Of a stretch of 64,000 bases of DNA, positions 48,077-52,830 are shown piece by piece. Both the position numbers and the translations under genes were made by a program. Under the pieces are notes generated by a model. The model did no database searches. It was not told the origin of the DNA and saw only the letters and a list, made by a program, of their open reading frames with translations. Every line of letters begins with the position of its first letter. The first letter of the stretch is position 1. The stretch comes from Prochlorococcus sp. AH-736-L23 (GTDB lineage: Bacteria > Cyanobacteriota > Cyanobacteriia > PCC-6307 > Cyanobiaceae): NCBI GenBank assembly GCA_028141225.1, contig JAOIPS010000004.1, forward strand, positions 1 to 64,000, written 5' to 3'.

Positions 48077-48697
48077 TCATCCAATCAAATTATTAATTTT
48101 ATCTTGAAGCTGCATTGTTACAGAATTCAGATCGTCTCTTGATGAACTTTGTGGAGGTTGAACAGGTTTTCCCACTTTAATAACTATTTTTGAAAACATT
48201 GGAATAAAGAATTTAAGTCTTATTAGTCTATGGGAATTAACTATTGCAACAGGCAATAATAATTTTTGATTTTTAAAGGCTAATAATGCTGCACCCTGTT
48301 TGGGCTTATTCACTCGGCCATTTTTTTGACGAGTGCCATCAATAAAAATTCCAATACAATTATCATTTGATAATTTTTTACATGCTGTTTTAATTGTATT
48401 TTTATCCACAATTCCTCTTTTTACAGGATAGGCCCCACAAGCCTTGATAATAAAGCCCAGAAAAGGAATTTTAAAAAGCTCTGCCTTGGCCATAAAAGAT
48501 ATATTACGTCCAAGGGCATGGCCTAACAAAGGAGGGTCAAGTAAAGAACCATGATTAGAAACCATGATAAAGGAACCTTTTTGCGGAATATTATCTCTAC
48601 CTATTAAATGACCTTTAAATACTAATTTATAAATAGGAAATACAAAAAGCTTGCTAACTAATTCATAGATTAATTTTTGAATAGTATGATTTTTCAT
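48077..48697 (-). CDS. plsC: 1-acyl-sn-glycerol-3-phosphate acyltransferase
   Basis: PlsC acylates lysophosphatidic acid to phosphatidic acid. The 206-aa protein has the HX4D motif (SNHGSLLDPP), KAELFKIPFLGFIIKACGAYPV and FIDGTRQ. A hydrophobic N-terminal segment likely touches the membrane. It is the last gene of the rpaB-plsX-fabH-fabD-plsC cluster, 5 bp after fabD. Confidence 0.93.
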   Translation of the reverse strand: MKNHTIQKLIYELVSKLFVFPIYKLVFKGHLIGRDNIPQKGSFIMVSNHGSLLDPPLLGHALGRNISFMAKAELFKIPFLGFIIKACGAYPVKRGIVDKNTIKTACKKLSNDNCIGIFIDGTRQKNGRVNKPKQGAALLAFKNQKLLLPVAIVNSHRLIRLKFFIPMFSKIVIKVGKPVQPPQSSSRDDLNSVTMQLQDKINNLIG

Positions 48698-48702
48698 ACA
48701 AA

Positions 48703-49599
48703 TTAATAAGATATTTGATCAGAAGATGAAACTTGAGAAATTTTTACATCTTTAAGATGTCTTTTCCCTAAACCGCTTAGTACATTAGAAGGGCCAATTT
48801 CAACAATATGAAGATCACTATCTTTTGCCATTAAATCCATAGTTTCTCGCCACCTCACTCCATTACACATTTGCTTTTCTAATCTAATTTTAAGCTCGTT
48901 TGGATCACTGCAAAGTGTAGGTTTATAATTACTTATGACTGGGAAAGAGGGATTGTTAAAATTAATTTGTTTTAAATATTCCGAAAATTTTGATGAAGGT
49001 TCGTTCATAAATGGCGAATGAAATGCACCTGAAACATTTAGTTTCAAGAATCTTTTACAAGAAATTTCTTTCGAAAAATTATCTAATGCTTCAGTAGATC
49101 CTGATAAGACAACTTGGGAAGAGCTATTATCATTTGCAATTACAATATCATCAATTTTTTGTACGAATAAATCAAGTTGATTTCTATCAAAACCAATTAC
49201 TGCTGCCATAGATCCTTTCCCAGCATTTTCCATTAATTGAGACCTTTCTTTTATTAGTGAAACACAATCTTCGAATGAAAATACATCCGCACAATACAGT
49301 GCAGTGATTTCTCCTAGACTGTGCCCAGCAACATAAGTAGGTTTAAATCCATTTTCCTTTAATGCATCTAATAAAATTGATTCAACTAAAAAAAGACAAA
49401 TTTGTGTATTTCTTGTGTTATTTAGATCAATAAGAGGATTTGTTTGTTCACAATCTAACTCACAAATTTCAAATAAATTCCGCTCAAATATTTCAGATGC
49501 ATAACTAAACCTCTCTTTTGTGTTGGGCAAAGTTTCAATTTGTTTTGCCATTCCAATTTTTTGAGAACCCTGTCCAGGGAATACCCATGCAACTGTCAT
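48703..49599 (-). CDS. fabD: Malonyl-CoA:ACP transacylase
   Basis: FabD loads malonyl groups on ACP. The 298-aa protein has FPGQGSQKIGM, the active-site GHSLGEITALYCA (GHSxG) and VSGAFHSPFM with the catalytic His. It is 15 bp after fabH and 5 bp before plsC in the minus-strand lipid operon. Confidence 0.96.
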   Translation of the reverse strand: MTVAWVFPGQGSQKIGMAKQIETLPNTKERFSYASEIFERNLFEICELDCEQTNPLIDLNNTRNTQICLFLVESILLDALKENGFKPTYVAGHSLGEITALYCADVFSFEDCVSLIKERSQLMENAGKGSMAAVIGFDRNQLDLFVQKIDDIVIANDNSSSQVVLSGSTEALDNFSKEISCKRFLKLNVSGAFHSPFMNEPSSKFSEYLKQINFNNPSFPVISNYKPTLCSDPNELKIRLEKQMCNGVRWRETMDLMAKDSDLHIVEIGPSNVLSGLGKRHLKDVKISQVSSSDQISY

Positions 49600-49614
49600 A
49601 ATGCTCCTTTTTGT

Positions 49615-50622
49615 TTAACCCCATTTAATTAGGGCTGCACCCCAACTTAACCCAGCGCCAAAACCACTTGTGGCAATAATATCATTTTGTTTAATTCTAT
49701 TATTTCTAATTGCCTCATCCATCACTAGTGGAATTGTTGCTGCTGAAGTATTACCATATTTTTCTAAATTGCTAAGAATTTTTTCTCCAGGAATTTTTAA
49801 TCTATCTCCTACAGAATCTAATATCCTTTGATTAGCTTGATGTAATACAAGCCAATCAACTTCATTAGAGGTATAGTTCATTTTTTTAAACAACTTTTCA
49901 AGAATTAATGGGACTTCTCTAACTGCAAATTTATACACTTCCTGACCATTCATCTGAATTGGAGAAAAAGCTCCACTTAAAAAATCAATATTATCAATTA
50001 TTGAATCTTTATTATTTTTTGATGAGAGATTAAGAAAAGAACCCCTTTCTCCATCAGTTCTCATATCAAAACCAATTAAATTATCACATTCATTATTTGC
50101 TTCAATTGCTAATGCACCTGCACCATCTCCAAAGAGAATGCAACTTCTTCTATCATTCCAGTCAACAAAGCTTGATAGTTGATCTGCTCCTATTACAATA
50201 GCCCTTTTGAAACTACCCCCTTTCAAAAATTGTGAGGCTGTAATTAAGGCAAATAAGAACCCACTACATGCTGCAGTTAAATCGAAAGCTACAGCATTAG
50301 CTGCCCCTAATTTACCTTGAATGGATGGGGCAGATCCAAATAAATCATGCGGAGTAGAAGTAGCTAAAACAATCAAATCAATCGTTTTAATATCCCAATT
50401 AGCCATTTCTATAGCGTTTAGAGCAGCCTTATAACCCATCTCATTAACATTATCTTCTACGCTAGAGATTCTTCTCTCAGAAATGCCCGTTCTAGATTTT
50501 ATCCATTCATTGCTTGTATCAACCTTTTGACTAATTTTTTGATTGGTTAGGATTTGATCAGGTACATAACTTCCGCTTCCCTTAAATGACACTCCAATCT
50601 GATTAAAATTAATTACTTCCAA
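49615..50622 (-). CDS. fabH: 3-oxoacyl-ACP synthase III (KAS III)
   Basis: FabH starts fatty-acid synthesis with acetyl-CoA and malonyl-ACP. The 335-aa protein has GSYVPDQILTNQ, the active Cys in LTAACSGFLFAL, HQANQRILD and YGNTSAATIPL (His and Asn of the triad). It lies 54 bp downstream of plsX. Confidence 0.97.
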   Translation of the reverse strand: MEVINFNQIGVSFKGSGSYVPDQILTNQKISQKVDTSNEWIKSRTGISERRISSVEDNVNEMGYKAALNAIEMANWDIKTIDLIVLATSTPHDLFGSAPSIQGKLGAANAVAFDLTAACSGFLFALITASQFLKGGSFKRAIVIGADQLSSFVDWNDRRSCILFGDGAGALAIEANNECDNLIGFDMRTDGERGSFLNLSSKNNKDSIIDNIDFLSGAFSPIQMNGQEVYKFAVREVPLILEKLFKKMNYTSNEVDWLVLHQANQRILDSVGDRLKIPGEKILSNLEKYGNTSAATIPLVMDEAIRNNRIKQNDIIATSGFGAGLSWGAALIKWG

Positions 50623-50676
50623 AAGAGTTTTTTTATTTACTTATATTAGTCAAACATAAATTTGACTCAATATGTT

Positions 50677-52083
50677 TTATGAATTTAAAACTTGAAGCTT
50701 TTGCAGTTGATTTAAATTGTCCATAACACCATGATTCACAGCAGAGTGAGCCAAGCGAAGAGCACTAACTACTGATAAAGATTTGCTACTTCCATGACCA
50801 ATAACGCAAATACCATTCACCCCAAGTAATAAAGCTCCTCCATGTTCGGCATGATCTAACCTTTTCTTAATTCTAAGTAGATTACTTCTTAAAAAAGCTG
50901 AACCAACTTTCCCCCGCCTTCCACGTGGCAGCTCAGATCTCAAAATATCTAATAAAACTCCTCCCACAGATTCAAGAAATTTCAACAATATATTTCCAGT
51001 AAATCCATCACAGACTACTACGTCGAAACTACCTGATAGTACATCTCTCCCTTCACAATTACCTCCAAAATCAAAACTTTTTTCAGAAGATAATAATTCA
51101 AACGTTTTTAAGGATAAATCATTACCTTTACATTCTTCTTCTCCAATATTTAAGAGGCCAATTCTTGGTTTTTGTACTTGTAGGACATCTTTTGCATAAA
51201 TATTACCTAGAAGAGCAAATTGATGCAGATAAGATGGCTTGCAATCAGTATTTGCACCGACATCTAAAACTAATACCGGACGAGTTTGATCCCTTGTTGG
51301 AAACAATGCTCCTATAGCTGGTCTCTCAATCCCTTTCAATCTCCCTATTCTAAATATGGCAGAAGCCATCATGGCACCTGAATTACCCGCTGAGTAGACA
51401 GCTTCAGCTTTATTATTTCTCACTAAATCCATTGCAACGTTTATACTTGCATTTTTCCTTTTTCTAACTGCGGTAGCTTCTTCATTCATCCCAATAGGCT
51501 CTCCACTATCAATTAATTCAAGACGATTATTATCTATTTCATTTTCTAATAATTCTGCTAATCCAATTTTTTCTGCTGCATCTTTAACTTTTTCAATTTT
51601 GCCGACAAACTTTATATTTATTGGAAATCTACTTATTGCTTCTAGACAACCCTCAAGAATTGGACCAGGAGCATAATCACCACCCATCCCATCAACTGCG
51701 ATCCAAATTCTTTTAGATTGAGATTGCTCCACCCTATCTAAAATATTATCGTTATTTTGTAATCTTTTTAATGGGTCAAAAACTAATGGCTGTAATGTAT
51801 TTTTAGCTATTGAACTAGCATTTGAAACTACACTACTAGCAGTATTAACAACAGATTCAGCACTTGAAACTACATTACCTGCAACATTACCTGCAACATT
51901 ACTAGCTGTGCTCACAACAGAACCAGCACCAGAAACCATATTACCCGCAACATTACTAGCAGTTGCTGCAGAACTTGCAGCAGTATCTACTATTGAAGTG
52001 ACAGCCGAATTTCTTTTGTACCAAATAACTAATCTTCTAATGGCTCTAGGCTTGTTAATTTTTTGCGCTGTTTCTTTCCCCAT
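50677..52083 (-). CDS. plsX: Phosphate acyltransferase PlsX with hendecad-repeat N-terminal extension
   Basis: PlsX makes acyl-phosphate from acyl-ACP for phospholipid synthesis. The catalytic part starts near residue 125 (RIWIAVDGMGGDYAPGPILEG, NSGAMMASAIFR, GGALLLGVNG). The first about 120 residues are extra. A basic segment (RAIRRLVIWYKR) is followed by six 11-residue repeats (residues 31-96) rich in Ala, Val, Ser and Asn, then a linker. At 468 aa it is longer than the usual 330-350. The ATG start directly follows the rpaB stop codon, so the two are co-transcribed. Confidence 0.95.
   Translation of the reverse strand: MGKETAQKINKPRAIRRLVIWYKRNSAVTSIVDTAASSAATASNVAGNMVSGAGSVVSTASNVAGNVAGNVVSSAESVVNTASSVVSNASSIAKNTLQPLVFDPLKRLQNNDNILDRVEQSQSKRIWIAVDGMGGDYAPGPILEGCLEAISRFPINIKFVGKIEKVKDAAEKIGLAELLENEIDNNRLELIDSGEPIGMNEEATAVRKRKNASINVAMDLVRNNKAEAVYSAGNSGAMMASAIFRIGRLKGIERPAIGALFPTRDQTRPVLVLDVGANTDCKPSYLHQFALLGNIYAKDVLQVQKPRIGLLNIGEEECKGNDLSLKTFELLSSEKSFDFGGNCEGRDVLSGSFDVVVCDGFTGNILLKFLESVGGVLLDILRSELPRGRRGKVGSAFLRSNLLRIKKRLDHAEHGGALLLGVNGICVIGHGSSKSLSVVSALRLAHSAVNHGVMDNLNQLQKLQVLNS
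51796..51993 (-). repeat. Six 11-residue (hendecad) repeats within PlsX
   Basis: Residues 31-96 of PlsX parse into six units of 11: IVDTAASSAAT, ASNVAGNMVSG, AGSVVSTASNV, AGNVAGNVVSS, AESVVNTASSV, VSNASSIAKNT. Position 1 is Ala/Ile/Val, position 4 is mostly Val, and positions 5 and 8 are also largely hydrophobic, fitting a 3-11 amphipathic helix with an uncharged polar face. The unit-level DNA similarity is partial, so the repeat is mainly at protein level. Confidence 0.8.
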
Positions 52084-52830
52084 TTATTTACCATCAAAAG
52101 GAGCAATATCAACAATCCTTTGAAAAAGATATCCTGTACCCCTTGCTGTCAAAATTAATTCAGGATTTGCTGGATCAGCCTCAAGTTTTGATCTTAATCT
52201 TGATATATGAACATCTACGACTCTCGTGTCTACATGTCTCTCGGGGGTATATCCCCAAACTTCTTTCAAGATCTCTCCTCTACTAAATGGCTCTCCTGAC
52301 CTACTTACCAAAAGCTCTAAGAGACTAAATTCCATTCCAGTTAATCTTATTCTCTCATCGCTTTTAAAAACTTGTCTTCGGTTTGTATCAATTTTTATAT
52401 CCGTAACCAAAATTAATCCTGAATTAGGCATTCCAGGAATTTGTTCTTTATCAATTCTTCTAAGAACACACCTAATTCTAGCTTCTAATTCCTTTGGGCT
52501 GAATGGTTTTACTACATAATCATCAGCCCCTAATTCTAAACCTGTTATCCTATCTGCGACATCTCCTAATGCAGTTAACATAACAATTGGGACATCAGAA
52601 TCTTTCCTTAATTCTTGACAAACTCCATAACCATCTAGCTTTGGCATCATGACATCAAGCACTACTAAATCAGGTTCATAATCCTTAAATAACTTTAGTG
52701 CTTCTTTACCATCACATGCAGTTACAACTTTGTAGCCAATCATGGAGAGACGTGTCTCCAGAATTCTTCTAATACTTGCCTCGTCATCTGCGACAAGTAT
52801 AGTTTCTTTAGTTTGACTAGATAGAGCCAT
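52084..52830 (-). CDS. rpaB: OmpR-type response regulator RpaB
   Basis: RpaB is an essential cyanobacterial regulator that binds HLR1 sites and controls high-light and photosystem genes. The 248-aa protein starts TKETILVADDEASIRRILETRLSM, has the phosphoacceptor DLVVLDVMMPKLDG, DYVVKPFSPKELE and a winged-helix DNA-binding domain ([33 protein letters not shown]). The N-terminus is diagnostic. It heads the lipid operon with no gap to plsX, and is divergent from radA (107 bp between starts). Confidence 0.95.
   Translation of the reverse strand: MALSSQTKETILVADDEASIRRILETRLSMIGYKVVTACDGKEALKLFKDYEPDLVVLDVMMPKLDGYGVCQELRKDSDVPIVMLTALGDVADRITGLELGADDYVVKPFSPKELEARIRCVLRRIDKEQIPGMPNSGLILVTDIKIDTNRRQVFKSDERIRLTGMEFSLLELLVSRSGEPFSRGEILKEVWGYTPERHVDTRVVDVHISRLRSKLEADPANPELILTARGTGYLFQRIVDIAPFDGK

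Follow-up and report, generated by a model that had tools for sequence, protein, structure and literature searches.

A lineage-specific N-terminal extension of picocyanobacterial PlsX is a candidate membrane-surface anchor

PlsX (phosphate acyltransferase) commits acyl chains to glycerolipids. In Prochlorococcus and Synechococcus, which are among the most abundant photosynthetic cells, these glycerolipids end up as the lipids of the thylakoid. It is a membrane-interfacial enzyme (PMC10146087). The Bacillus subtilis protein binds membranes via the tip of a hairpin in the enzyme core, where a short amphipathic peptide is located (PMC6702220; reviewed in PMC10146087); this 9-residue peptide is the anchor of a protein without any N-terminal extension (PMC6702220). 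Replacement of the membrane-inserting Leu254 by alanine or aspartate (L254A, L254D) delocalises B. subtilis PlsX, and localisation is retained in L254E, which was explained by snorkelling (PMC6702220). In Synechocystis, PlsX is associated with the thylakoid membrane (PMC6878006). Two groups of amphipathic helices in other proteins are also relevant here. Plin4 and alpha-synuclein are built of true 11-mer (3-11) repeats in which 15-24% of the residues are charged; their hydrophobic moment, hydrophobic fraction, aromatic fraction and charged fraction are 0.257, 0.35, 0.002 and 0.15 for Plin4 and 0.30, 0.47, 0.02 and 0.24 for alpha-synuclein (PMC5889406). ALPS motifs (e.g., that of GMAP210) are shorter, with bulky hydrophobic residues and an almost uncharged polar face of the Ser/Thr/Gly type.

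The window analysed here is a stretch of 64,000 nucleotides from Prochlorococcus sp. AH-736-L23. In it, the genes for RpaB, PlsX, FabH, FabD and a PlsC-like acyltransferase are arranged head to tail along the minus strand (48077-52830), so plsX, beside fabH, fabD and the plsC-like gene, is in an ordinary lipid-synthesis setting. The coding sequence of plsX (50677..52083, minus strand, 468 aa) starts with an ATG immediately downstream of the rpaB stop codon. By Pfam, NCBIfam and predicted fold the product is PlsX, with a core from about residue 126. The Pfam match (PF02504) begins at residue 128 with 340 bits (E = 1.7e-101, curated cut-off 29.1), and TIGR00182 gives 363.7 bits (curated cut-off 243.4). 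We place the catalytic core at residues 128-454 (50722..51702, minus strand) from PF02504 and from the AF2 model, which Foldseek aligns with the B. subtilis PlsX crystal structure (6a1k_B) with a TM score of 0.94 by target length. The two enzymes thus have the same fold, as well as the same need to act at the membrane surface. The NCBIfam model NF010419 (PRK13845, 440 positions) matches the window protein with 888.9 bits, extension included (cut-off 729), and gives the PlsX of a cyanobacterium without the extension 477.7 bits, under the cut-off. The alignment of a Synechococcus-type member starts at model position 3; the extension is therefore already part of a public family model, which is silent on its function and periodicity. 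In the literature searched, with subscription papers mostly outside its scope, we found no description of the PlsX extension. The first-pass annotation of this DNA likewise knew of no such description for cyanobacterial PlsX.

The N-terminus consists, in order, of a short variable start, a basic segment, a repeat, an exit motif, a variable linker and the core. The basic hydrophobic segment (RAIRRLVIWYKR, residues 13-24, 52012..52047, minus strand) is near-invariant in alignments of the picocyanobacterial family. It is followed by 72 residues of amphipathic repeat (residues 25-96, 51796..52011, minus strand) made of Ala, Ser, Val, Asn, Thr and Gly, then by the strongly conserved exit motif LQPLVFDPLKRLQ (residues 97-109, 51757..51795, minus strand) and by the linker (residues 110-124, 51712..51756, minus strand). 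The first-pass annotation had recognised most of the repeat (residues 31-96, 51796-51993, minus strand), and was right that it precedes the PlsX domain, that a basic segment lies ahead of it and that its polar face is neutral (Ser, Asn, Gly and Thr).

The same annotation described the repeat as six exact 11-residue units with hydrophobic residues at fixed positions, that is, as a hendecad (3-11) array. We rejected exact hendecads since the columns of an 11-residue register are mixed (column 5 reads A,A,V,A,V,S) and self-identity at lag 11 is low, at 0.18, vs 0.32-0.36 at lags 7, 18 and 22. At the DNA level the tandem repeat has a unit of 66 bp (22 aa) in 1.9 copies. Successive V/A pairs are spaced by 4 or 7 residues, and these steps average out to an ordinary alpha-helix: the spectrum of the window protein has its maximum at 99-100 degrees, equivalent to 18 residues per 5 turns. 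Judged by this periodicity, the repeat is a straight stripe along an ordinary alpha-helix, with a period of 18/5 and not 11/3 (98.2 degrees). Its helical moment in the 90-110 degree band was matched by none of 5000 composition-preserving shuffles, and by three of 5000 when any angle from 60 to 180 degrees was allowed. Among the 59 open reading frames in the window that are 120 aa or longer, it also has the strongest 66-residue signal at 96-104 degrees (power fraction 0.212, runner-up 0.155). The peak at 98-102 degrees recurs in 121 of 123 distinct segments from the family, with 95% of segments at p<0.01 vs shuffles, so that the periodicity is common to the relatives even though the period is not 11 residues.

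Picocyanobacteria (Prochlorococcus, marine and freshwater Synechococcus and relatives) form a single clade on a tree of PlsX cores (support 0.91). A genus-level search returned a match in 127 of 151 genomes, most misses being incomplete assemblies, and at the family level a PlsX match was found in 120 of 121 genomes, with all 37 sampled genera represented. When the N-termini were read, 221 sequences had the full architecture; their repeat segments, 149 of which are distinct, are 25 to 94 residues long. Another 15 sequences, in five genera, had no repeat. An unrelated or absent N-terminus was seen in none of the close relatives, all of which carry the extension. PlsX of other cyanobacteria begins about 10 residues before the core motif and has no extension, as is the case for the nearest outgroup of the family (locus L143). 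On the core tree, two successive early branches of the family are without the repeat. One (loci L228 and L230-L235) has the basic segment, and five of its seven sequences also have a link of 14 residues (such as TGPVIRLVNTAGTA-LTPL). In the other (L236-L242), the basic stretch is rich in Arg and Ile. Thus, the basic segment predates the repeat, which grew afterwards. As a side observation, the 14-residue link resembles a seed of the later repeat.

In the genomes searched, the extension occurs in one copy per genome and always on PlsX. No similar segment was found in their other proteins beyond one weak match, an 81-aa open frame outside plsX (G170:C8:35542-35658, E 0.014) that is possibly due to chance. 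A second extension-like match in another genome (G235) was discarded as a contig end. Viral contigs yielded no extension, and comparison with the PDB gave chance-level matches only.

The repeat is under strong purifying selection. Within Prochlorococcus, dN/dS is 0.083-0.113 for the repeat and 0.062-0.068 for the core, with values of 0.008-0.046 for the basic motif and 0.017-0.019 for the exit motif. Single-step replacements changed the hydrophobic or polar class of a residue in 3 of 36 cases in one set (expected 42%, P = 1e-5) and in 13 of 80 in another (expected 46%, P = 3e-8); the groups of 40 and 54 residues were uninformative for this test, as equal length there does not mean homologous register.

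With a moment of 0.29, a hydrophobic fraction of 0.45, no aromatic residues and a charged fraction of 0.045, the repeat resembles Plin4 and alpha-synuclein in being long, repetitive and weakly hydrophobic, with few or no aromatics and a similar moment, and, like them, it is probably unfolded alone. The features shared with the 11-mer class are thus a long, weakly hydrophobic, near-aromatic-free helix and a moment of about 0.26-0.35; tandem 11-residue units and the 11/3 period are absent, the PlsX tail having an 18/5 period and about 4% charged residues. The resemblance is one of chemistry, and we do not claim homology. The polar face fits that of ALPS motifs, whereas the hydrophobic face, made of Val and Ala without Phe, Trp or Tyr, is not bulky, and we do not assign the tail to that class. 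No 19-residue segment is hydrophobic enough for a transmembrane helix, the maximum mean Kyte-Doolittle (KD) value being 0.86 in the window protein and 1.42 in the family against a threshold of 1.6. A glycine zipper was excluded because Gly is located on the polar face (mean cosine -0.51), together with Ser and Asn. In the AF2 model of the full protein nearly all residues 28-104 fall below pLDDT 50, and the tail modelled alone has low-confidence helices at 5-48 and 70-95. This is compatible with folding on a surface, of which it is no proof, and with the tail so poorly defined AF2 was set aside as a guide to docking mode.

We consider it probable, at roughly 60%, that the extension serves as a lineage-specific N-terminal membrane-surface anchor of picocyanobacterial PlsX. 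We favour this reading because the amphipathic pattern is conserved and selected, because its values are like those of Plin4 and alpha-synuclein, and because the residue at the hairpin tip of the core is now Arg (see below). Anionic lipids (SQDG and PG) would be drawn to the basic RAIRRLVIWYKR segment. The following segment, Ala/Val-faced and backed by Ser, Asn, Thr and Gly, is likely to be largely disordered in solution and, on a lipid surface, may fold into one long, weakly hydrophobic, straight alpha-helix within the head-group region, from which the exit motif would lead the chain back to the dimeric enzyme. Such an anchor could keep PlsX at the site of acyl-phosphate transfer to PlsY, and would probably supplement or partly replace the insertion of a hydrophobic hairpin tip that other PlsX proteins use. 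That the tail binds lipid, folds on the membrane and functionally replaces the tip is what we infer. The targeting to a membrane or lipid surface that was proposed in the first-pass annotation thus stands as the best explanation, for the picocyanobacterial family and not for cyanobacteria at large; judged by sequence, the membrane concerned may be the thylakoid, the plasma membrane or the surface of a lipid particle. Synechocystis PlsX, from the group without the extension, is found at the thylakoid, and the extension is therefore not the general cause of a thylakoid location.

Several observations count against an anchor. The hydrophobic face of the repeat is weak (Val/Ala), and a 66-residue Plin4 fragment alone remained cytosolic (PMC5889406), so that, unless helped by the basic segment and the dimer, the tail may bind too weakly. 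The length of the repeat also ranges from 25 to 94 residues, and the two early-branching clades lack it. Finally, its polar face could equally serve protein-protein contact.

The tip of the helical hairpin in the core (ELPRGRRGKVGSA, residues 384-396, 50896..50934, minus strand) differs from that of B. subtilis. Arg389 (codon 50917-50919, minus strand) aligns with Leu254, so the window protein does not have the hydrophobic residue that defines a tip anchor of the B. subtilis type. The equivalent position is Arg in 235 of 236 picocyanobacterial sequences and Tyr in the remaining one. Of 60 other cyanobacteria (three of the tip residues were read by eye), about 57 have Leu, Ile, Trp, Val or Met there, two have Thr and one is unclear. 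Given that L254E retained its localisation, Arg may also be tolerated at the tip. In the early branches, the tip Arg arrived together with the basic segment, before the repeat; since Arg is already at the tip in the clades without the repeat, the repeat itself did not arise with it. The tip change and the extension both fall on the stem of the family and are therefore one coincidence, rather than independent evidence or a statistical association. From these alignments, the membrane anchor of picocyanobacterial PlsX may have been rebuilt as the tip turned positively charged. It is a tentative proposal, on balance doubtful, that the anchor of this essential enzyme moved from the tip (once hydrophobic, now Arg) to a new N-terminal cationic helix, from which a long perilipin-like surface helix later developed; growth of the latter by steps of 4 and 7 residues, part of the same scenario, is put forward just as tentatively.

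If the anchor did move, it would represent a bacterial case of an enzyme tethered to glycolipid-rich membranes by an 18/5 amphipathic helix that is both long and nearly uncharged, and an anchor rebuilt across the lineage would bear on where small picocyanobacterial cells make their membrane lipid. The tail and the tip residue provide a clean test pair within one protein. Helix length also varies naturally, with no helix in some sequences and 25 to 94 residues in the others, and this series could reveal the length that a weak amphipathic helix needs to hold an enzyme on a glycolipid membrane.

Alternatively, the extension may be for protein contact, with the Ala/Val-faced helix packing with itself, to form higher-order PlsX, or with PlsY, ACP or FabH. 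We regard this, the main rival, as unlikely. A conserved amphipathic pattern whose hydrophobic face carries small residues would suit helix packing, and GxxxG spacing is frequent (226 occurrences vs a shuffled mean of 65). The conservation of the basic and exit motifs is high enough for them to make specific contacts, and the genes rpaB, plsX, fabH, fabD and plsC are grouped. However, the stripe runs at 100 degrees, vs the 102.9 (heptad) or 98.2 (hendecad) degrees of supercoiled coils, and Gly is on the polar face, unlike a zipper with Gly on the packing face. The nearly fourfold range of lengths would be odd for a defined interface, and AF2, in a monomer model, gave no confident packing.

It is improbable that the extension is a low-complexity linker, generated by replication slippage and serving for little more than spacing. 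In favour of this, tandem repetition is visible in the DNA and the repeat is variable in length. All 19 distinct repeat lengths correspond to whole numbers of helical turns (Rayleigh R 0.82 at 3.6 residues; 0.10 for the linker control), and of 79 length changes mapped on the core tree, 78 keep the phase. If slippage occurred between direct repeats already present, 93-99% of the resulting changes would be in phase; thus, the phasing is not independent evidence, and we rejected length quantisation as proof of selection. The linker explanation is nevertheless largely refuted by selection, given the dN/dS of 0.08-0.11 and the class-preserving replacements. The pattern is retained in about 30 genera between nearly invariant flanking motifs, and the adjoining true linker, from exit motif to core, has every length from 18 to 25 across the family. 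Targeting elsewhere (a specific zone of the thylakoid, the cell pole, a lipid particle or another compartment) via a receptor for the basic segment would accord with that segment being the most conserved part and with its presence in early-branching clades that have no repeat, but is the least probable explanation, as nothing like the segment was found in other proteins of the searched genomes, the PDB or viral contigs.

A minor feature concerns the start of the gene. In many Synechococcus-type relatives (e.g., loci L188, L200 and L216) plsX has no ATG, and the likely start is a conserved TTG, followed by PPKDPD. In these relatives the upstream frame seems to overlap the end of rpaB.
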